Assembly (NCBI RefSeq): GCF_014695575.1
Contig: NZ_JACJOO010000044.1
Span: 1 to 40,754, forward strand
Direction of reading: 5' to 3'
Source: Leptolyngbya sp. FACHB-8
GTDB lineage: Bacteria > Cyanobacteriota > Cyanobacteriia > Elainellales > Elainellaceae
DNA length: 40,754 bases
The position numbers were made by a program, and so were the translations under genes. The notes below the pieces were generated by a model. That model was given only the letters and a program-made list of their open reading frames with translations, did no database searches and had not been told where the DNA came from. Numbering within the stretch: the first letter of the stretch is position 1; each line of letters begins with the position of its first letter. Positions 170 through 11,958 of the stretch are shown here, in pieces.

Positions 170-1306
170 ATGAAGCCTTATCGGATGGAGCCTCAGCCTG
201 CCCGTCGTCGCTCTGGCTTTGGTGGCAAATTCTTTTTCCTGCTGCTATTGCTAGGGATTCCGGCAGCGGTTGTCTGGGCTGCCAACCTACCCTATGCACC
301 TATCCGCCGTCCGATCGCTCGCAACATGCCCATTCTGCTGTTGCCCAGCTACATGCATGTAGACCGGGATTTTCGGGATGCGATCGCCCTCACCGAACAA
401 TCCAAGCAACTCATCGACAATGCCACCAGTTTTGCCGATATCCAGATGGGCGCTCAGAAGGTGACAGAAGCTCAGGCCAAGCTGGATGCGCTACCCCTGG
501 ATCTGGTGAGCTACTGGCCCAATCGCTATTACTACTGGTACGACTGGCGCTTCAGCCCCGTCGCCTTTAATGGAGCCCGGGCAGAGGTGGGACGGCTGCA
601 AGCCAAAGTCTTTCAGGAGCAGAATGCCCATACGGTGCTGACAGATGTTGAGCAAGCGCTCAACAAGGCCAAGCAAAACTATCAGGCTGCACCCGATCTG
701 GTATCGAAGCAGGCCGCCATTACAGCCTGGCGCGTTGCTCTGAATCAGATGGAGATAGTTCCTGCACAAACACTGGCAGGGGATATAGCACGACAGAAAT
801 TGGAGCCAGAGAAGGATGAGTTTCAGGCGATCGTAGGTGAATCGGCGACAAGTCGTGAGACCGCTGTGCTGATTGAATCAGCCCGAAGCTTTGCGTGGGA
901 AGCCGCAAAGCGAGCACAAAACCCACCCCACTCGGTAGAAGAATGGGCGGCGATCGAACAGCTTTGGGAAAAAGCCATTTATCTACTCAGCCAAGTTTCT
1001 GCCACTACGGATCCAACGGGATTTGCTGAAGCCCAAAAGCTGATGGCAACTTATCAGTCAAATAGGCTGGATATTAGCATTCGGAAGCAGGCGGAGAGTG
1101 AGGCGATCGACTCATTAAAAAGGACACAGCAAGAAATTCAATCGCTACTGGCGCAATTGAACTATATGAACGCCAATCAAGTTGCTGCACGCTTGCAAGG
1201 CATTCTGACTGAGTTGAACAGCATTAAACCCGGCACAACCGCTTATAAAGAAGCTGAAATTTTGCGATTGCAAACCAACAACAAGCTGCAAGAAATCAGT
1301 CGGTAG
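170..1306 (+). CDS. Conserved cyanobacterial membrane-anchored coiled-coil protein, function unknown
   Basis: A protein of about 378 residues with no recognised catalytic domain. After a short basic segment (RRRSGFGGK) there is one strongly hydrophobic helix at about residues 20-39, so it is probably an inner-membrane protein with one anchor. The rest is Gln/Ala/Glu-rich and helical, likely coiled coil, with a Tyr/Trp-rich patch (YWPNRYYYWYDWRFS) after the first helical segment. The frame is open upstream to a TTG at 137. The ATG at 170 is preferred because it starts right before the conserved-looking MKPYRMEPQ segment; neither start has a clear ribosome-binding site. Its neighbour at 1388 is convergent, so it is probably transcribed alone. 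I recognise it only as a cyanobacterial hypothetical family. Confidence 0.75.
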   Translation: MKPYRMEPQPARRRSGFGGKFFFLLLLLGIPAAVVWAANLPYAPIRRPIARNMPILLLPSYMHVDRDFRDAIALTEQSKQLIDNATSFADIQMGAQKVTEAQAKLDALPLDLVSYWPNRYYYWYDWRFSPVAFNGARAEVGRLQAKVFQEQNAHTVLTDVEQALNKAKQNYQAAPDLVSKQAAITAWRVALNQMEIVPAQTLAGDIARQKLEPEKDEFQAIVGESATSRETAVLIESARSFAWEAAKRAQNPPHSVEEWAAIEQLWEKAIYLLSQVSATTDPTGFAEAQKLMATYQSNRLDISIRKQAESEAIDSLKRTQQEIQSLLAQLNYMNANQVAARLQGILTELNSIKPGTTAYKEAEILRLQTNNKLQEISR

Positions 1307-1334
1307 AGGTTAATTGAGCCGAGTCGTTTACAAC

Positions 1335-1389
1335 AATAGGATCTCCGGCTGAAGGACCATATTATGACTCTTCAGCCAGAGATCCTATT
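1335..1389. terminator. 20-bp inverted repeat between convergent genes
   Basis: The arms 1335-1354 and 1370-1389 are complementary with one mismatch around a 15-nt loop. The repeat lies exactly between the convergent genes ending at 1306 (+) and 1388 (-), and its right arm overlaps the stop codon of the latter. A bidirectional terminator or mRNA-end hairpin is likely, although there is no long T run. Confidence 0.5.
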
Positions 1390-1909
1390 ATTCATCGGTG
1401 TCGTGCAGTTTTAATTGCATACAGCAGCGATCGCTCATCGGCAACCCCCACTCTGCTTCAGCACTGCGAATCGCTCGTAAAGCAGGGCTGATGTCTTCGT
1501 CAGGGATAATTTCAAATCCTAACCGGCTGTAATAGGGAGCATTCCAGGGGATGGTGCGAAAGGTGGTGAGGGTGAGGGTGCTGTGGCCTTGGGCTTTGGC
1601 CCACTGAGCGATCGCCTCAATCAGCCGACGCCCGATACCCTGACGAGCGTACCGGGGATCAACATCAATCTCCTGAAGATGCGGTCCCGATGTCAGTACA
1701 CGAACAACAGCAAAAGCAATAGGTTGATCCATTACATCCGCAGCAATCCAGATCAGGAGCCGGGGGGGATCTAAAACCCAGGTGTTGGGTTCTGAGTTGG
1801 CGATCGCTTCATAATCCGTTCCTCTAAACAGCTCGGACCCTGCCTTCTCAATCTGAGATAGATGGGGCAAATCCTCTAGGCGAGCGGGTCGAATGGTGAC
1901 AGCATCCAT
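1388..1909 (-). CDS. GNAT family N-acetyltransferase
   Basis: A 173-residue protein with the GCN5-related acetyltransferase fold. The acetyl-CoA-binding motif A is visible as a beta strand ending in IDVDPRYARQGIGR (about 81-94), followed by the alpha3 helix RLIEAIAQWAKAQG. A late tyrosine segment (NAPYYSRLGFEIIP) is typical of motif B. It should transfer an acetyl group from acetyl-CoA to an amine; the substrate (small molecule, ribosomal protein or other) cannot be read from sequence. Length is normal for a single-domain GNAT. It is leftward and convergent with the preceding gene. The ATG at 1909 is followed directly by the conserved DAVTIRPARLEDL start of the fold, so the start is secure. 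Confidence 0.88.
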   Translation of the reverse strand: MDAVTIRPARLEDLPHLSQIEKAGSELFRGTDYEAIANSEPNTWVLDPPRLLIWIAADVMDQPIAFAVVRVLTSGPHLQEIDVDPRYARQGIGRRLIEAIAQWAKAQGHSTLTLTTFRTIPWNAPYYSRLGFEIIPDEDISPALRAIRSAEAEWGLPMSDRCCMQLKLHDTDE

Positions 1910-2357
1910 ACCATTTCTCGGGTTATTCGTTATCCTACTCCAACTGGCAAGTGTACCTATGACAAATTCATCACTAATTCATTAGGCATTTCATACACTG
2001 ACATATAAATCTTTTCAACCTAGTGCTATATAGATGCAGGGCAAAGTTCTACATCCACACATCACCAGACAGGGAAATACTGCATGCTAAAAAGCATCAT
2101 TTCTTAAAAATTACGTACTGATCACAATGCTGTCTATTCCCTCAACTCGATGTAGTTGCGAAATCATCTCTTAATAAGCTGTTTGAGAAGCTTCAAAGAA
2201 GTGATTTTCCGTGCTTTAAGGAGATAGAAATTAACCGTTGAATTTGACAAGGCTCCTGGAACTCATTTGAAGCAGACTTGGAAAACCTACCCAGCAGTAT
2301 TGTTGGGTAGAATAGCAGTAAACTTACGCTCTTCAAACGGTTTAACCCTGGCATTTT
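1910..2357. other. Gene-free divergent spacer with one small hairpin
   Basis: About 450 bp, AT-rich, between the leftward GNAT gene and rightward ccdA, so it should hold promoters for both. The only clear structure is a 7-bp perfect hairpin (CTACCCA at 2287-2293 with TGGGTAG at 2304-2310), 48 bp before the ccdA start. No convincing reading frame was found. Confidence 0.5.
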
Positions 2358-3101
2358 ATGGTGGAGTACCTTCAAACCCAGCTTTATTATCTGGCCCAGT
2401 TTGCCGATAATCTGGTATCCAGTCAACTGGCTCATCTCACCCCCTTGAGTATTGGGGTGATTTTTCTGGCAGGGTTACTCACCAGCCTGACGCCCTGCAT
2501 GTTATCTATGCTGCCCATTACGGTGGGCTACATTGGCGGGTACGAAGCTCGGGGACGGTTGTGGGCAGCCGCACAATCTACCTGGTTTGCCCTGGGATTG
2601 GCAACAACCCTGGCTATCATGGGGGTGTTGGCGGCGATCGCCGGTCAAGTCTACGGCAAAATTGGCATTGGGCTTCCCATCGTTGTCAGCTTGATTGCCA
2701 TTTTGATGGGGCTCAATCTGCTGGAAGCATTACCCCTAAGACTTCCCTCCTTCACAGGCATGGATTGGATTTCAGAAGATTGGCCCGAGGGCATTCGCTC
2801 CTACGTTTTAGGGTTAACCTTTGGGCTCGTGGCCTCTCCTTGCAGCACTCCTGTCTTGGCAACGCTTCTCGCCTGGGTTTCTACCACGCAAAACCCAGTG
2901 CTGGGAAGTAGTCTGCTGCTGGCCTATACGGCTGGATATGTCACGCCGCTCATCTTAGCAGGCACCTTTACGGCCTCGTTGAAGAAGCTGCTGGAGTTGC
3001 GCCGCTGGTCAGGGTGGATTACGCCCGCCAGTGGAGTGTTATTAGTAGGGTTTGGGGTATTTTCACTACTGGTACGGGTGTTGCCAACCACCGCTCTCTA
3101 A
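2358..3101 (+). CDS. ccdA: CcdA-type cytochrome c biogenesis / thiol-disulfide transporter
   Basis: A 247-residue polytopic membrane protein of the CcdA/DsbD transmembrane family. The family moves reducing equivalents across the membrane by thiol exchange; in cyanobacteria it feeds the lumenal CcsX/CcsB system for cytochrome c heme attachment. Six hydrophobic helices are visible. The two functional cysteines are C47 in LTSLTPCMLSMLPITVGY and C162 in VASPCSTPVLATLL, both in the Pro-Cys or Cys-Pro-rich turns typical of the family. The length matches stand-alone CcdA. The usual partner ccs1/ccsB is not in the window; sppA follows in the same direction after a strong hairpin. The ATG at 2358 is the first good start, without an obvious Shine-Dalgarno. 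Confidence 0.9.
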   Translation: MVEYLQTQLYYLAQFADNLVSSQLAHLTPLSIGVIFLAGLLTSLTPCMLSMLPITVGYIGGYEARGRLWAAAQSTWFALGLATTLAIMGVLAAIAGQVYGKIGIGLPIVVSLIAILMGLNLLEALPLRLPSFTGMDWISEDWPEGIRSYVLGLTFGLVASPCSTPVLATLLAWVSTTQNPVLGSSLLLAYTAGYVTPLILAGTFTASLKKLLELRRWSGWITPASGVLLVGFGVFSLLVRVLPTTAL

Positions 3102-3115
3102 AACAATGAAGACAC

Positions 3116-3154
3116 AATTGATAATTTGTCGGCATTCCCGACAAATTATCAATT
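3116..3154. terminator. Perfect 17-bp hairpin after ccdA
   Basis: The arms 3116-3132 and 3138-3154 are perfectly complementary around a 5-nt loop (CATTC). The repeat sits 15 bp after the ccdA stop. Its base is A/T-rich and its tip is GTCGG/CCGAC. It probably ends or protects ccdA mRNA and separates it from sppA. Confidence 0.6.
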
Positions 3155-3212
3155 TGAGTCAATTTCTACCAGGGCGGAATCTTTATTATTTCTAAGCTTT
3201 AGAGCAACCAAA

Positions 3213-5009
3213 ATGGGCAAGTTTATTCAACAAATCCTGGCGACCGTGATCGGGTTGATTTTATTCGTAACGCTGGGGTTAGGAGGACTGTTATTGTTAG
3301 CAGCGATCGCCGCTGTAGTCACAGAAGGCCCATCCGCTAGCGTCAAAGACGACACCATTCTCACCCTGGATTTGAGCCACGGAATTACCGATGCTAATAT
3401 TGATCCGCCTCTGGGATTAGTGGAAACAGCCCTGGGTTTAGAGAACAAAAGTCGGGCTGTCCCCCTGCGGGTTGCCATTGACGCGATCGACGCTGCCGCC
3501 AAGGATGATCAGATCAAAGCGCTCTACATTACGGGCACCCTGAGTTCCGTCTCGGGCTACGCCACACTAGAAGAATTGCGCCAGGCTCTAGTCGATTTCC
3601 GTGCTTCAGGAAAATCCATTTACGCCTATGGGGGCGGTTGGGATGAACGTGATTATCTACTAGTGTCTGCGGCCGACCACATCATCCTCACCCCCAACGC
3701 CTTGATGGAGTTGAATGGCTTACGCGCCGAAATGATGTTCTTTGCTGGGGCCCTGAATAAATACGGTGTTGGAGTTCAGGTCATTCGAGCTGGACAGTAC
3801 AAAGCTGCCGTGGAGCCTTTCATCCGCACCGATAACAGCCCAGCGGCGGCCCAGCAAACTCAGGCCTTACTCGACGACCTCTGGCAAGAATTTGTGACCC
3901 AGGTAGCCGCAAGCCGCAAGCTAACTCCTGCCAAAATTGAGGCGATCGCCAACCAACAGGGGCTGCTCTCCGCCGAAGCGGCCAAAAACGCCGGGCTGGT
4001 AGATAGGCTAGCCTACCCGGATGAAATGGAAGCCGAACTCCAGAAGTTAACGGGTGCGGAGAAAGCAGAAGACATCCACGACATCAGTGTGATGGAATAT
4101 GCCGAAGTAGCAGATGTGGGAACAACGAACGCCAGTGGCAACAAACAGGTCGCCCTGGTGTACCTGAATGGTGACATTGTGAGCAGCAGTGATAGCTCCG
4201 AGCAGATTGCGGGCGATCGCACCGCTGCCCTCCTCAAGAAGTTACGCCTTGATGATGACGTGAAAGCCGTTGTCCTCCGCATCAATAGCCCTGGCGGCAG
4301 TGCCTTTGCCTCTGAGCTGGTTGCACGGGAAATCAAGCTGCTGCATGATACGAAGCCCACCATTGCATCCATGGGTAACGTGGCGGCCTCAGGCGGTTAT
4401 CAGCTGGCCACCTACGCCCACAAAATCTACGCCTCCCCCGCCACCATTACAGGCTCCATCGGGGTGTTTGGCATGGTGCCTAACGTACAAAAGCTCGCCA
4501 ACGACAACGGCATCACCTGGGATAGTGTCCAAACCAACCCCAGCGCTGATCTGTATAGCATCTCCCGCCCCCGCACGCCTCAGGAGCTAGCCATGCTACA
4601 AGGCATGGTGGATCAAACCTATACTGACTTCCTGAACATGGTGTCTCAATCGCGATCGCTCCCCGTGGCAGATGTGCGAAAAGTCGCCGAGGGTCGCGTC
4701 TGGTCAGGCATTGATGCGAAAGGAGTTGGCCTCGTGGATGAACTGGGTGGGCTGGAAACCGCCATTCAAGCTGCCGCGAAGCAAGCAGACCTCGGAGACA
4801 ACTGGAAACTGGTGGAATATCCGGATGCACAACCCTTCCAACTCCAAGCCCTTACCTCCATCTTGAGCCGAGTCAGTTCCCATAGCGCTGCCAATGATCC
4901 TCTCAATCAGGCGATTCAGAGAGCCCAGCGCGAGCTATCTTTCCTGCAAAACCTGGATGATCCTAAGGGAGTTTACGCGCGATCGGCATTCCAGCCAGAG
5001 ATTCGCTAG
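3213..5009 (+). CDS. sppA: Signal peptide peptidase SppA, long (67K) type
   Basis: A membrane-anchored serine protease of family S49 that degrades signal peptides after their release; in cyanobacteria SppA has also been linked to light acclimation. Using the ATG at 3213 the protein has 598 residues, the size of the E. coli 67K form, with two S49 halves. An N-terminal anchor (IQQILATVIGLILFVTLGLG) lies near residues 4-30. The catalytic pair is visible: the N-terminal-half lysine K197 in RAGQYKAAVEPF and the C-terminal-half serine S363 in INSPGGSAFASE. The frame is open upstream to a TTG at 3126, but that start would fall inside the ccdA hairpin and add a tail before the anchor, so 3213 is preferred. 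Rightward, about 110 bp after ccdA. Confidence 0.93.
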   Translation: MGKFIQQILATVIGLILFVTLGLGGLLLLAAIAAVVTEGPSASVKDDTILTLDLSHGITDANIDPPLGLVETALGLENKSRAVPLRVAIDAIDAAAKDDQIKALYITGTLSSVSGYATLEELRQALVDFRASGKSIYAYGGGWDERDYLLVSAADHIILTPNALMELNGLRAEMMFFAGALNKYGVGVQVIRAGQYKAAVEPFIRTDNSPAAAQQTQALLDDLWQEFVTQVAASRKLTPAKIEAIANQQGLLSAEAAKNAGLVDRLAYPDEMEAELQKLTGAEKAEDIHDISVMEYAEVADVGTTNASGNKQVALVYLNGDIVSSSDSSEQIAGDRTAALLKKLRLDDDVKAVVLRINSPGGSAFASELVAREIKLLHDTKPTIASMGNVAASGGYQLATYAHKIYASPATITGSIGVFGMVPNVQKLANDNGITWDSVQTNPSADLYSISRPRTPQELAMLQGMVDQTYTDFLNMVSQSRSLPVADVRKVAEGRVWSGIDAKGVGLVDELGGLETAIQAAAKQADLGDNWKLVEYPDAQPFQLQALTSILSRVSSHSAANDPLNQAIQRAQRELSFLQNLDDPKGVYARSAFQPEIR

Positions 5010-6792: not shown

Positions 6793-7095
6793 ATGTTGAC
6801 TTCGTTACTCATTCTGTGTTTTGGTCTGACTCCCTCGGTGATCTCATTGTGGTGCCTGCGACATTCCAGAGCAGAGTCTCAGGCGCGCTTTCAACATGCA
6901 ATGGAATCCATGAGCTACAGACGGTTTGCCACGCCGACCCAGCGGCCGGATCAGCAATATGTAGAGGGATTAGGGCTGGTAGTTGGGAATATTCGCTGTC
7001 AGTATAATGCGCGATCGCCCTACATCCGCTGTGCTATCAACCCCAGCGGCCCCTGCGACGAATGCTCCCACTTTGAAGAACGGCCTTTGCCATAG
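6793..7095 (+). CDS. Small conserved cyanobacterial protein with CxxC-type C-terminus (DUF6464-like)
   Basis: A 100-residue protein. The N-terminus is one hydrophobic helix (LTSLLILCFGLTPSVISLW), giving a membrane anchor or signal sequence. The C-terminal half has the conserved pattern CQYNARSPYIRCAINPSGPC followed by DECSHFE, with four cysteines (CQY, RCA, GPC, ECS) that could bind a metal or form disulfides. I recognise the pattern as a cyanobacterial domain of unknown function, probably DUF6464, from memory only. The ATG at 6793 follows 'cagt' without a clear ribosome-binding site. It is rightward and convergent with the large fusion gene ending at 7206. Function unknown. Confidence 0.75.
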   Translation: MLTSLLILCFGLTPSVISLWCLRHSRAESQARFQHAMESMSYRRFATPTQRPDQQYVEGLGLVVGNIRCQYNARSPYIRCAINPSGPCDECSHFEERPLP

Positions 7096-7107: not shown

Positions 7108-7212
7108 GCGTTGAGAACGTTCAATAGAACGTTCTCAACGCAGATTTAGCCCATGGCCATCGTGCCTACCTCAAGGGAGTTCAGTGAAACGTCCTTAACG
7201 CGGGTTTAGCCA
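7108..7212. repeat. Perfect 15-bp hairpin plus degenerate direct repeat at a convergent gene junction
   Basis: The arms 7108-7122 and 7127-7141 are perfect with the loop AATA; the half-site GAACGTTC is itself palindromic. The sequence from 7121 to about 7152 recurs in degraded form at 7181-7212 (TTCAGTGAAACG... GGTTTAGCC), 60 bp later. The second copy runs into the 3' end of the leftward gene. It probably serves as a terminator for both convergent genes. Confidence 0.6.
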
Positions 7213-9737
7213 AGAATAAGTGGCCAGAGAAGAAGGGCGATCGCCCCGCTTGCAATATGCTGGGGTAGCAAGCAGCGGAACGGCTGCCGAGCAATTTTTT
7301 GGGCCACCACAATGCTGAGCAAAACCCCTGCCATGAGCGTAGACCCTTGCAGAAATGCAATAACGGCCGGATGAACGGTTAGTACCAGGGCTTCGCCACC
7401 ACTTAGACCAACCGTGGCAAGGCTTACGGGAATCACTCGGCCCACTTCTGTCAGCCCCAAATGCAGATAGTGGGCTAGATTAGCCGCCAACACCAAAGGC
7501 AGATAGCCATAAGCCAGTTCCACAAAGGGCCTGGGATGAGGATTGTGGTTGAACAGGTGCATCGCTCCGTAGGCGAGGAGGGCGATCGCCCCTGGTACCA
7601 GTAGTGCGACCCCTGATATCCCCAAATGTCCCCAAACGTTCCCCAAAATTTGGGTAGGTTGAGAAATGCCAAGCCGGATCAGACTTTCGGGCAGATGATG
7701 CAGGAATACGGCTCCAAACAGTAAAAACAGCAGATAAACCTCATGCAGAGTCGGTTTGTGCGTCGTCCATAATTCAATACCGGGTGGTCGTAGATTGAAT
7801 TCCACAGACCGGTGGGGACAGGCTTTCAGGCAGGTCATGCATAGTACGCAGTCACGGTTATCCTGCAACTGAGCCGGGTGCGAGTAGAGGGGGCAGCCCC
7901 CTGTCTCCTGGCCTTCTCCCTTTTCAGGGCCACCCCGATAACACTGGTAAGTGGTGCAAGTAGCAGAGCAAATGCCCTGCTGAGCCCGCAACTCAGTCAT
8001 CGACAACTTGGCAAACAGGCCATTCATCCCACCAATGGGGCAGAGGTAACGGCACCAAAACCGCCGCTCAAACAGCACAGAAAAGACCACAGCACCTGCG
8101 GTAATCAGCATCAGGAGACAGCCCGACAAATACGCTGTGTTCTCCAGGTTCCACAACTCTTCCCAGAGCAAAATCAGGGCGAACATCCCAAACACGAACC
8201 ATCCACCCCACCGCTCAGCCTGGGTGCGGGGCCAGGAGCGCAGGGAGCCGGGGAAAAATCGGTTAGTGATCTTTTGGGCGATCTCCCCGTAGATCATGAA
8301 GGGACAAACCGAGCACCAGATACGCCCCAGGAAGGGAAAAATGAGCAGCACCAGGGGCCACCACCAGGCCCAAAACAAATTTAGGGCAATATTGCGATCG
8401 CGACTCTGCGGCCCAAACCAGAGAATCGCCACGACGACCGCAAATAGGGTAAAAGTGATGCCATAGTTGATGCGATCGGGCCACCACGGACTTCGCAAAA
8501 ACTGCCGCAGCCGAGGGTAGCTGTTTAACAAATTAATTCGGAATCGTCGGGTTTTGCTCCCCACCGCCCAAAAGACTTCTTCGGTCAGCACAGGTGCACA
8601 GTTAGATTGAATAACAGCCCGCTCTACCATGCTTTCCAGCTCTGACAAATTGCCCGGAAAGTCATACCCCTGAAGCCGCCGCAATGCTTCGGGGGCCACA
8701 GTCGGCTTGTTAAGCCCCTTGGCTTTGCAGTAGAGCCCGATGTAGTAGTTCACCTGGGGTTCCAGGTCAGCCTTTCGTACCCGCAGTGGCGGCACTTTAA
8801 TGATGTGCCCTATACTTTGTTGCCGTTCCAGCTCTGGCAGAGTGCGTTCTGAGGTGAAGATAAACCGCGCCTGACTTTGACGGGGTGAAGCCTCCTCGCC
8901 ATCACGGGTAATCGGAGTATATTCACCCGTTTTCACTAAGTGGCGAATTTTGGGACGGAGTTCTTTGGGTAACTCCTGAATGTTGTTGAGGAGTAAAGTG
9001 CCACGGCCCAACCAATCTAACAACCCCGCCTTGCCCCCAGCTCGACCGAAAAGCTCGGCACCGTTGGCCTGGATCTTGTCGCAGTCCACACGAATAAGGG
9101 GTTGTTTGCGATCGTCCCCGCCAAAATGAACCAATGCCGCTGCGTTGTCCTTCCCTAACCCAGGCTCCCCAAAAATCAGCACAGGTCGCCGGTCTTTCGA
9201 GGCCTTGGTAATGTCGTTGCGCAACCGCACGGCATACCGGCTGGAACCAATAATCCCCCGTTTTACCTTCGGCAGCAGGTAGGGGCGCAGGGCTATCTGC
9301 CGTTCCTGTTCAAAAGTCAGTTGAGCTGACATTTGATTCAGCTCGTCGGCCAGCTGCCGAGAAAGTACCTGATTGATCACCGGATACTGGAGAGCCAGAG
9401 CCCGCAGGCGATCGCCCTGTACCCGCCATAGCTCAGACTCATCCAACGTAACGATGGTTTGCTCCGTAGGCTGCTCTAGCAACACCTCTTTGAGGTACAA
9501 CACCGAACCCGGCAGCAGACCGACATCCAGAGGAGCATTGCCCTCCCGGTGTACTTCCACGTGGCCCTGTTTGAGGATATAAAGACCATCGGGATGGGTT
9601 TGCTCTGTTACTAATTTGTGATTTGCGGGAAGAATTATGGGTTCAAGGAGAAGGGCGATCGCCGCCAAAACTTCTGGTGGCAACATTCCCAGAACCGTCT
9701 GCGCTTGTAACCAATTCTGCTGCTCCTGGCTATCCAT
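7206..9737 (-). CDS. Crp-like / degenerate NtrC-type AAA+ / NapH-NosR-type Fe-S membrane fusion protein
   Basis: An 843-residue three-part protein. Residues about 20-125 form a cyclic-nucleotide-binding-like beta roll (DGLYILKQGHVEVHREG). Residues about 160-390 resemble the AAA+ domain of sigma-54 activators: Walker A GEPGLGKD (190-197), GAELFGRAGG, arginine-finger region LRVRKADLEP and lid DFPGNLSELESMVERAV. The GAFTGA loop is absent, Walker B reads LLLNNIQ with Asn for both acids, and no Fis-type DNA-binding domain follows. From about 425 there are several TM helices with polyferredoxin motifs: GRIWCSVCP, FWCRYLCPIGG, CSATCTTYQC, and CVLCMTCLKACP (630-641). His residues (HH, HYLH) in the late helices could bind heme. 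Inference: a redox membrane protein gated by a Crp/AAA+ module. The ATG at 9737 is chosen over an in-frame TTG at 9770. Transcribed alone. Confidence 0.85.
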   Translation of the reverse strand: MDSQEQQNWLQAQTVLGMLPPEVLAAIALLLEPIILPANHKLVTEQTHPDGLYILKQGHVEVHREGNAPLDVGLLPGSVLYLKEVLLEQPTEQTIVTLDESELWRVQGDRLRALALQYPVINQVLSRQLADELNQMSAQLTFEQERQIALRPYLLPKVKRGIIGSSRYAVRLRNDITKASKDRRPVLIFGEPGLGKDNAAALVHFGGDDRKQPLIRVDCDKIQANGAELFGRAGGKAGLLDWLGRGTLLLNNIQELPKELRPKIRHLVKTGEYTPITRDGEEASPRQSQARFIFTSERTLPELERQQSIGHIIKVPPLRVRKADLEPQVNYYIGLYCKAKGLNKPTVAPEALRRLQGYDFPGNLSELESMVERAVIQSNCAPVLTEEVFWAVGSKTRRFRINLLNSYPRLRQFLRSPWWPDRINYGITFTLFAVVVAILWFGPQSRDRNIALNLFWAWWWPLVLLIFPFLGRIWCSVCPFMIYGEIAQKITNRFFPGSLRSWPRTQAERWGGWFVFGMFALILLWEELWNLENTAYLSGCLLMLITAGAVVFSVLFERRFWCRYLCPIGGMNGLFAKLSMTELRAQQGICSATCTTYQCYRGGPEKGEGQETGGCPLYSHPAQLQDNRDCVLCMTCLKACPHRSVEFNLRPPGIELWTTHKPTLHEVYLLFLLFGAVFLHHLPESLIRLGISQPTQILGNVWGHLGISGVALLVPGAIALLAYGAMHLFNHNPHPRPFVELAYGYLPLVLAANLAHYLHLGLTEVGRVIPVSLATVGLSGGEALVLTVHPAVIAFLQGSTLMAGVLLSIVVAQKIARQPFRCLLPQHIASGAIALLLWPLILG

Positions 9738-9894: not shown

Positions 9895-10048
9895 GGCGAA
9901 GCTCAGCGCAATGCGTGATGCGCTCATGATGCCTATCTCGTTTCTGGCGTAACTCAGCGCAACGGGTAGCGCACCCGAGATTTGTATACCGTTTTTGGTG
10001 TAGTTCAACGCAACGGGTAGCGGACCTAAAGTTTGTATGCCGTTTTTT
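9895..10048. repeat. Three tandem imperfect 51-bp repeats just upstream of the porin gene
   Basis: Units start at 9895, 9946 and 9997 (51, 51 and 52 bp). Each begins GGYGTAR(C/T)TCARCGCAA and ends with a C/G plus T-rich CGTTTTT-like tail; units 2 and 3 share CAACGGGTAGCG. The array ends 18 bp before the porin ATG, so it lies in the promoter or 5' leader. Arrays of this general type are common in filamentous cyanobacteria; function here is unknown. Confidence 0.85.
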
Positions 10049-10065
10049 GGTGTGAGGATAAATTG

Positions 10066-11958
10066 ATGCAACTCTTGTGGATGAAACGTGCGAATTTTTC
10101 TGCGGTCCTGTGGCTGGCTTTGGTGAGTGGATTGGCAGTCGCCATGCCATCCATGCAAGCTCAAGCCGTTGAATCCGAACCGTCTCGATACGACGCATTA
10201 AAGGTAGAACCTGCTTCTGATGGTTCTGCGATCGCCTTAACCACAGAACCGTCCTCCGATCTAACGACGGTTTCCGAGGTCAGTGCCCCCGGCTCAGAAG
10301 CCCCGATGGCATCCGACGCGATCGCCACAGAGCCCGTCGCGGAGACCGAGCAAGCACCTGGCAACGGAGTTGCCCTGCAGGATTGGCGCACTACCCAAAC
10401 CGCAACGACCCGTGATACCGCTTCTACCCTGAGTGCGGTACAGGCCACGATGAATATGGCTCAGGTCACCTCTGTCACCCAATTCTCTGATGTGCAGCCG
10501 GGAGATTGGGCCTATGAAGCTCTTTCCTTTCTTGCCAACTCCGAAGACCAGGGGGGATTGGATTGCCTGGAAGGGTACCCCGACGGCAGCTACCGGGGGA
10601 ACCGAACCCTGAGCCGTTTTGAATTTGCAGCCGGATTAGCCGCTTGTTTGGATGCGATCGCGGGCACAAATTTAGATGCAGAACAAATTACCCGCGTTGA
10701 AGCGCTCCAACGTGAGTTCTCCGCTGAATTGACAGCCCTGCGCGGTCGCGTCGATACCCTGGAAGCCCAGGTAGACGAACTAGAAGCCAATCAGTTCTCT
10801 ACGACCACCCGGCTGTTTGGTCAGGCGGTCGTGGGTGTGCAGGGTCGCAACGAAAACGACTTCACGTTTTTTGTGGATGAACTGACCGACGACGAAACCA
10901 GCGTCAACCTCATTACCAACCTTCAGCTCAGCTTACTAACCCAGTTTGATGAGCGCACCATCCTGCTAACCGGGCTACAGGCCGGTGATGGCGGCACCGT
11001 AGAAGATGGTCCCGCTCTCAGCAACTTCTTCCGGTTGGGTTATGAAGGGGATACGGACAATGACTTCCGGCTCAGCGACCTGAGCCTGCGCCATCTGATT
11101 GGTGATGACTTTGCCATCATTGTTGGAGCAGAAGGACTGAACGCCGTCAACGTTTTCCGGGGTACGAACCGGGTCGAGGGAGCAGGATTAGGCCCTCTCT
11201 CGTTGTTTGCTCAACGTAACCCCATCATTGGCATGGGTAACGGTGAGGGTGGCCTTGGGTTTGACTGGCAAATTGCCGATCGCATTAGCCTGCAGGGGGT
11301 TTACTCCTCCAGCCTGCCGAGTGATACAAACCTGGGCGGTTTGTTTGGTGGCGATCAAGGAGAAACGGCGATCGGAGCACAACTGGTTGTCACTCCCATC
11401 GATAACCTGGACGTTTCGTTCCAGTACATCAACTCCTATTCCCCCTTCGGTCGACTGGGTACCGGAGTTGGCGATGACCAAATTGCGGTTTTGGGCGGAA
11501 ACTTCCGGGCTCCCATTAACACCGATGCGTTGGGGACCTCTCTCGCCTGGCAAATTTCCAATACCTTCTCTCTGGGCGGATGGTTTGGATATACCAACTC
11601 AGATTTACAGGGGGATAGGGGAAATGCAGAGACCATCAACTGGATGGTGTTCTTGAACGTTGCTGATGTGCTGGGCGATGGCAACCTGGCTGGACTGTAT
11701 GTGGGTCAACCACCGCGTATTGTTAGCAGTGACTTCCCCGGAGGCCGGAACGTGCCTTCCTTTATCAATGAGGGCGAAGTGGAAGCTGGTTCTGGCGGGC
11801 AACCTGATGCAGCAACTCATCTGGAAGGCTTCTTCCGCTGGCGTTTGAGCGACAACATCGTTCTAACTCCCGGCTTCATTGTCATCTTTAATCCGGGTCA
11901 TAACTCTGACAACGACACCATCTTTGTCGGCGCACTCCGGACAACCTTCCTGTTCTAA
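10066..11958 (+). CDS. SLH-domain outer-membrane porin (OprB / iron-uptake porin family)
   Basis: A 630-residue major outer-membrane porin of the cyanobacterial SomA/OprB type. A signal peptide (about 1-34, ending MPSMQAQA) is followed by a Ser/Thr/Ala-rich linker. Next comes one SLH domain (about 132-190: TQFSDVQPGDWAYEALSFL ... LEGYPDGSYRGNRTLSRFEF) that tethers the protein to peptidoglycan-linked polymer, a coiled coil (about 205-242), and a long beta-barrel region ending in the aromatic residue expected for outer-membrane insertion (TTFLF). The family allows passage of small solutes and inorganic ions, iron among them. The ATG at 10066 has an upstream GAGG at good spacing; an earlier in-frame ATG (10033) would precede the signal peptide and is rejected. 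The 51-bp repeats lie directly upstream. Confidence 0.92.
   Translation: MQLLWMKRANFSAVLWLALVSGLAVAMPSMQAQAVESEPSRYDALKVEPASDGSAIALTTEPSSDLTTVSEVSAPGSEAPMASDAIATEPVAETEQAPGNGVALQDWRTTQTATTRDTASTLSAVQATMNMAQVTSVTQFSDVQPGDWAYEALSFLANSEDQGGLDCLEGYPDGSYRGNRTLSRFEFAAGLAACLDAIAGTNLDAEQITRVEALQREFSAELTALRGRVDTLEAQVDELEANQFSTTTRLFGQAVVGVQGRNENDFTFFVDELTDDETSVNLITNLQLSLLTQFDERTILLTGLQAGDGGTVEDGPALSNFFRLGYEGDTDNDFRLSDLSLRHLIGDDFAIIVGAEGLNAVNVFRGTNRVEGAGLGPLSLFAQRNPIIGMGNGEGGLGFDWQIADRISLQGVYSSSLPSDTNLGGLFGGDQGETAIGAQLVVTPIDNLDVSFQYINSYSPFGRLGTGVGDDQIAVLGGNFRAPINTDALGTSLAWQISNTFSLGGWFGYTNSDLQGDRGNAETINWMVFLNVADVLGDGNLAGLYVGQPPRIVSSDFPGGRNVPSFINEGEVEAGSGGQPDAATHLEGFFRWRLSDNIVLTPGFIVIFNPGHNSDNDTIFVGALRTTFLF

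Follow-up and report, generated by a model that had tools for sequence, protein, structure and literature searches.

A conserved cyanobacterial membrane polyferredoxin carrying a sigma-54-activator-type AAA+ domain that looks catalytically dead

Why would cyanobacteria conserve a remnant of a sigma-54 activator that has apparently lost its catalytic activity, when few members of the phylum have sigma-54 at all (by the PF04552 counts below and a passage of PMC12316311), and what does this remnant do in front of a membrane Fe-S module? The question is raised by one gene on a contig of Leptolyngbya sp. FACHB-8, of which the whole stretch of 40,754 nucleotides was analysed (the window). An earlier note, made from the letters alone, had read its product as a CNB-type sensor, an NtrC-like AAA+ domain and a NapH/NosR-like membrane part joined in one chain. 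The single frame, the domain matches and the wide occurrence of relatives bear this layout out (Table 1), and a literature search among open-licence papers found no description of such a fusion. Besides the families named in Table 1, Pfam reports Sigma54_activat at residues 162-306 (E 1.8e-14) and Fer4_5, and the NapH model of NCBIfam matches residues 469-648 below its cut-off. A whole-chain AlphaFold model, built on a 34-row alignment (the second of three, with 36, 34 and 44 hand-chosen rows), has a mean pLDDT of 83.9 and a pTM of 0.56, with a loop at residues 587-632 below pLDDT 50. The gene lies between an SLH/OprB porin gene upstream and divergent (10033-11958, plus strand) and a DUF6464 protein gene downstream and tail to tail (6793-7095, plus strand).

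Table 1. Layout of the fusion gene, in window positions, with residue numbers of the encoded protein
Feature	Position	Strand	Basis
Whole gene: CNB-like / pseudo-AAA+ / NapH-like polyferredoxin / C-terminal TM bundle	7206..9737	-	Single ORF, ATG start, 843 aa
CNB-like domain, residues 1-148	9294..9737	-	Pfam cNMP_binding 36-117; CNB folds SLC9C1, Clr
Sigma-54-activator-type AAA+ core, residues 160-310; GAFTGA lacking, Arg-finger segment gapped	8808..9260	-	Pfam, alignment, folds
Walker A GEPGLGKD, residues 190-197	9147..9170	-	K196 in 163/163 rows
Asn251-Asn252 in place of the Walker B Asp-Glu	8982..8987	-	Subfamily A rows: N251 132/133, N252 131/133
AAA lid, residues 311-392	8562..8807	-	AAA_lid_14 319-380
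NapH-like membrane and Fe-S module, residues 418-660	7758..8486	-	Four predicted helices; CX2CP 475/478, CX3CP 562/566
Cluster loop: C590, C594, C599, C615 and CxxCxxCxxxCP at 630-640	7818..7970	-	Every Cys 163/163
C-terminal membrane bundle, residues 661-843	7209..7757	-	Five predicted helices; present too in the AAA-less Deinococcus protein

Relatives at E<=1e-40 are encoded in 249 of the 388 genomes of Cyanobacteriia, and the fusion is therefore not an assembly artefact; single-frame, full-length relatives in many genomes rule out a chance ORF as well. A pattern scan returned 526 relatives, the best 80 of which all stand under cyanobacterial titles and align from query residue 1-9 onwards. 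The host has one copy, plus a weak match elsewhere (26% over residues 447-606). Some match was found in 1094 of 72,556 plasmid records; two of these, both cyanobacterial, cover 80% or more of the query at a single site, and no full fusion from outside the cyanobacteria is among the matches listed. In a search within the phylum, the listed matches from members outside the class are all partial. Further afield, AAA-less 4Fe-4S membrane proteins occur in Deinococcus ficus (33% identity over residues 402-818, C-terminal helices included) and in haloarchaea (about 27% identity); unlike the window protein, they have about 450 aa and leave no space for a CNB and an AAA+ domain.

Motif counts were made on 163 rows, from hand-chosen loci, out of 177 matches (>550 aa, E<1e-40), which fall into subfamilies A (133), B (11) and C (19). 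Among the 14 dropped matches are relatives without an AAA+ domain, for example the Deinococcus protein, and the length filter favours rows bearing the AAA+ part. In a quick, arbitrarily rooted tree of 61 rows, B and C are set apart (SH-aLRT 100), A is the rest, and one locus (L132) forms a long branch. The window gene belongs to subfamily A. Subfamily B is present, at E<=1e-220, in 43 of the 388 genomes of the class and in 29 of 155 genera, and subfamily C (family f19) is without the CNB-like domain. A further lineage has two tandem AAA+ domains in one frame, in a chain of 1121 aa (locus L186 of genome G396, 1143-4508, plus strand), the first Walker B reading Asp-His and the second Asn-Asn; G402 (L188) and G409 (L187) were assigned to this lineage by frame length alone.

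The NtrC-type AAA+ fold is present in the window protein, as the PF00158 match and the structural similarity of this part of the model to FleQ, NtrC1 and PspF (Z 23-25) together indicate; PF00158 alone is unspecific, matching 14 of 14 control genomes and nine places in the host genome. VpsR, like FleQ, is among the solved structures that match the domain closely. In an alignment with PspF and NorR of E. coli, the window protein retains Walker A, reads LLLNNI at Walker B and lacks GAFTGA, just as the earlier note had described, and the GAFTGA loop is absent from all nine family AAA+ domains aligned in this way. The same note had counted the Arg-finger region as kept, which proved mistaken: the FRADLLDRL/FRADLFHRL segment of PspF/NorR is gapped in the nine domains, one of which retains part of its length, and the PPLRVRKAD that follows remains. 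Adjoining this gap is Arg305, found in 96 of 133 subfamily A rows, which might stand in for the first Arg finger and leaves that finger slightly open.

Across the family, the Asn-Asn pair that the earlier note had singled out for a conservation check is nearly invariant in subfamily A (Table 1), an intact Walker B occurs in 0 of 163 rows, and a catalytic Glu at position 252 is likewise found in none of these rows (cyanobacterial loci, >550 aa). Of the 11 subfamily B rows, seven carry Asp251 and all carry Asn252; in C, Asp251 is present in 13 of 19 rows and residue 252 is mixed. The P-loop Gly before the Lys (position 195) is Glu in 86/133 A and 17/19 C rows, so the intact Walker A of the window protein is atypical, and subfamily B has a regular GKT at 195-197 in 11/11. 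At the sensor II position, the Arg of PGNIREL, the window protein has Ser; Arg is found there in 24/133 A, 18/19 C and 0/11 B rows. This Arg in C and in part of A, together with the GKT of B, would count against full decay of the domain, and five residues (Lys196, His204, Asp324, Asn363 and Glu366) are each kept in 163/163 rows. Judged by its residues, the AAA+ motor looks dead across the family, the catalytic residues being lost, in contrast to the invariant cluster ligands; nucleotide binding appears possible, Lys196 being kept.

A working sigma-54 activator was considered and rejected: GAFTGA, the Walker B acids, an HTH and a host match to the sigma-54 DNA-binding domain (DBD) were not found, and the Arg-finger segment is gapped. 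On these grounds we share the earlier view that this is not a normal activator, and also that it lacks a DNA-binding domain, since Pfam finds no DNA-binding or HTH family in the window protein at E<=1, a search in which HMMER filters discard most matches above about 0.1. The accompanying premise that cyanobacteria are without sigma-54 agrees with the host genome, where PF04552 (sigma-54 DBD) has 0 matches in a search that is positive in 4 of 14 control genomes. Across the phylum, 11 of 386 genomes match at E<=0.001, two of them above the cut-off. Sigma-54 is described as absent from 29 cyanobacteria in passages of PMC3162934, and two cyanobacterial exceptions are named in passages of PMC12316311. 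The stronger of our two above-cut-off matches is an orphan 202-aa ORF (L189:2415-3023, minus strand, 62 bits); its genome, of family f6, has no other PF04552 match.

DhaR, VpsR, TyrR and HupR are DNA-binding regulators. Like the window protein, they have an AAA+ domain of this family in which GAFTGA is broken (as passages of PMC3162934 describe); the window protein differs from them in the Asn-Asn of Walker B, the gapped Arg-finger segment and the polyferredoxin end, and no HTH was found in it.

The CNB-like domain scores 35.7 bits against PF00027 (cut-off 27.5), and its part of the model resembles the CNB structures SLC9C1 and Clr at Z of about 17. The fold is common to the Crp/Fnr regulators, whose C-terminal HTH was not found in the window protein. 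In Crp/Fnr proteins the cyclic-nucleotide cassette carries a phosphate-binding Arg; in columns 80-100 of the CNB, where the alignment is loose, no conserved Arg was found in A or B (maximum in A, 21/133). The domain is missing from subfamily C and from 4/133 A rows (loci L134-L137, near which only a short helix match was found), absences that fall on several separate branches with the rest of the chain retained. Nucleotide-dependent gating by a working switch, which the earlier note had offered as a possible role, is not supported: a conserved CNB Arg is lacking in this loose alignment, the CNB is absent from part of the family, and the AAA+ site lacks the hydrolysis residues.

The Fe-S part is conserved to a different degree. 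All 12 cysteines (475, 478, 562, 566, 590, 594, 599, 615, 630, 633, 636 and 640) are kept in each of the 163 rows, in agreement with the claim that the Fe-S cysteine sets are intact, and the redox half looks functional by this measure. The second cysteine set is regularly spaced; the first is irregularly spaced yet invariant. No other region of the chain is as well conserved as the NapH-like module, which has mean identities (sampled pairs) of 84% within A, 60% between A and B and 58% between A and C. The corresponding values are 65%, 30% and 41% for the AAA core, 51% within A and 25% between A and B for the CNB, and 70% within A for the lid. The four helices of the module are seen in the AlphaFold model (hydropathy at a cut-off of 1.5 misses the helix at 504-528 and flags one CNB stretch). 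On the assumption of alternating helices and of the charge rule, all 12 cysteines would lie in two cytoplasmic loops. Modelled alone (44 rows), the redox half has a pLDDT of 84.4 and a pTM of 0.85, with the same loop (587-632) below 50. No solved relative of this half was found by sequence (best E 0.037) or by structure (Foldseek none at E<=0.001; VIA Z<=6.6 among the matches listed). Heme in the C-terminal helices was also considered: His756 is present in 125/133 A and 9/11 B rows and in only 2/19 C rows, and heme ligation is therefore not a family feature.

Among known systems, the closest comparison is with NapH/MauN (TIGR02163), whose membrane helices, two Cys-Pro motifs and last 4Fe-4S motif align with the window protein; the alignment with E. 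coli NapH covers both Cys-Pro motifs and the last cluster motif. Unlike these proteins, the window protein reaches 57 bits against the TIGR02163 cut-off of 213.05, has CX2CP for CX3CP at the first motif and an irregular first cluster, and bears extra C-terminal helices and the CNB-AAA+ fusion. NapG (NF007012) has 0 matches in the host at E<=1e-5, and is above the cut-off in 1 of 14 control genomes. Passages of PMC5928378 describe a four-helix module with CX3CP motifs as common to NapH, NosR and RdhC, propose the NapH membrane segments as quinol oxidisers, and state that mutation of the CX3CP motif disturbs function. NosR/NirI and RdhC (PceC) thus share the four-helix module with its Cys-Pro motifs (PMC5928378, same passages); in contrast to the window protein, they have a flavin-binding extracytoplasmic domain, of which Pfam finds none in the window protein, where a pseudo-AAA+ stands in front.

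Gene neighbourhoods connect one subfamily with sulfur. At 43 subfamily B loci (42 genomes and one plasmid record), a same-strand cysK follows the B gene in 28, and in 21 of these it is no more than 200 nt away; twelve of the other 15 loci have >5 kb of downstream sequence and three <1.5 kb. A cysK gene is found within 7 kb of the subfamily A gene at 2/80 loci, and, when the count is restricted to loci flanked by 6 kb or more in each direction, in B at 19/29, in A at 2/57 and in C at 0/20. In six B genomes the cysK most similar to the query is 73-94% identical to it, and every one of these genomes has one or more further copies, at 45-59% identity, which suggests a dedicated paralogue; the close copy lies just downstream of the B gene in five of the six and about 7 kb off in G472. 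Other neighbours of the 43 B loci are rhodanese (14), petC (9), psbA (7), ArsR (6), SQR-like (4), YgaP-like (3) and DsrE (2) genes. Rhodanese, petC, psbA and SQR-like genes occur near A at 0/80 and near C at 0/20 loci. The A loci (n=80) have ArsR at 6, cysK at 2 and the remaining 14 reference genes at none, and the C loci (n=20) have ArsR at 4 and all other reference genes at none within 7 kb. These reference genes were taken from two B plasmids, one in the locus set and the other probably in it, and the neighbour comparison therefore favours B; the cysK adjacency stands independently of this. The counts omit L112 (probably the same plasmid as L231) and a contig-end fragment of G201. Gene context supports sulfur chemistry for subfamily B. 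Around the subfamily A gene no conserved operon was found, LtrA, DUF4351 and ArsR genes recurring in part of the loci only; given this and the scarcity of cysK there, the sulfur link may not extend to the window gene.

Taken together, we favour, tentatively, a quinone-linked polyferredoxin whose partner in electron exchange is a sulfur or thiol system of the cytoplasm, the non-hydrolysing pseudo-AAA serving as scaffold or switch. The conserved working part would be the Fe-S module of a NapH/NosR-type membrane electron-transfer protein. Electrons would move between the membrane quinone pool and cytoplasmic Fe-S clusters, probably two in number, via the paired Cys-Pro motifs on the cytoplasmic side, with the cytoplasmic partner as the next acceptor or donor; quinone as the membrane partner is presumed, as is any direction of flow. 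The CNB-like and AAA+ front domains descend from regulators; the AAA+ domain would now be a scaffold, or a clamp responding to a ligand, which holds the partner in place or fixes the conformation of the module. In subfamily B, the partner pathway would be sulfide handling, and the cysteine synthase gene that often comes next would be dedicated to it and presumably share its operon; for subfamily A we infer a related cytoplasmic sulfur or thiol reaction. Weighing against this reading are the lack of a conserved A operon, the B loci without cysK, the Fur-type neighbours of some C genes, the missing NapG match in the host, the irregular first cysteine set, the failure to find a solved relative of the redox half, and the low model confidence in the cluster loop. 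A bolder version, which we consider rather improbable, is a new class of quinone-linked Fe-S oxidoreductase that ties photosynthetic electron transport to sulfur metabolism in the cytoplasm (sulfide, persulfide or thiol) and whose gate is formed by oligomerised, dead sigma-54-activator domains, with B passing its product to the co-encoded cysteine synthase. If electrons do pass between plastoquinone and sulfur metabolism here, the protein would supply a connection so far missing from the photosynthetic electron network, for which the B-cysK pair offers a genetic handle.

The same domains could instead form a membrane redox sensor, in which the Fe-S module senses redox conditions or sulfide and the CNB-AAA+ part controls a partner by binding, with no metabolic electron flow. 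The regulatory descent of the front domains fits this, as do the ArsR-type genes within 7 kb of some A, B and C loci, the Fur-type genes by some C loci, and the NosR/NirI relatives, initially regarded as regulators (in passages of PMC5928378). However, Pfam finds no output domain, the Fe-S part is much better conserved than the putative output part, and several branches without the CNB have the remainder in place, so that we consider a sensor unlikely, though it is the chief rival. Binding of a nucleotide by the AAA+ domain without hydrolysis (ATP, or c-di-GMP as in FleQ/VpsR), gating electron flow, would explain the invariant Lys196 and the place of FleQ and VpsR among the close solved matches, but it sits badly with the frequent Glu at the P-loop Gly in A and C, and has in our view a small chance of being right. 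That the fused front half is a functionless, decaying passenger seems more doubtful still: the catalytic motifs are gone and the CNB is absent from C and some A rows, yet core and lid remain well conserved within A, with strictly kept residues, and one lineage carries two AAA+ domains in a single frame. The selection of rows >550 aa, which favours those bearing an AAA+ part, weakens this conservation argument.

Some loci have further features. Islands on plasmids of Pseudanabaena galeata (pPg_03, L112) and Aulosira laxa (plasmid2, L113) carry a subfamily B gene, cysK, copies of psbA and petC, and rhodanese-like genes, the former also SQR-like and DsrE genes. In the Pseudanabaena plasmid island, the SQR-like oxidoreductase (98 bits, cut-off 525) is accompanied by rhodanese, DsrE, petC and psbA genes and by an ArsR/SmtB gene, BigR matching only under its cut-off. 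Such islands may be portable gene sets for sulfide or low-oxygen conditions. At 18 of 152 A and C loci (L039:6577-7809, plus strand, and 17 other A loci), an LtrA-family membrane protein is encoded within 3.5 kb after the A gene, in the same orientation. In subfamily C, a Fur-family-like gene lies directly after the gene or overlaps its end at 6/20 loci (for example L150:8811-9506, plus strand), one of them confirmed by Pfam, and an SDR gene is found upstream in these six.
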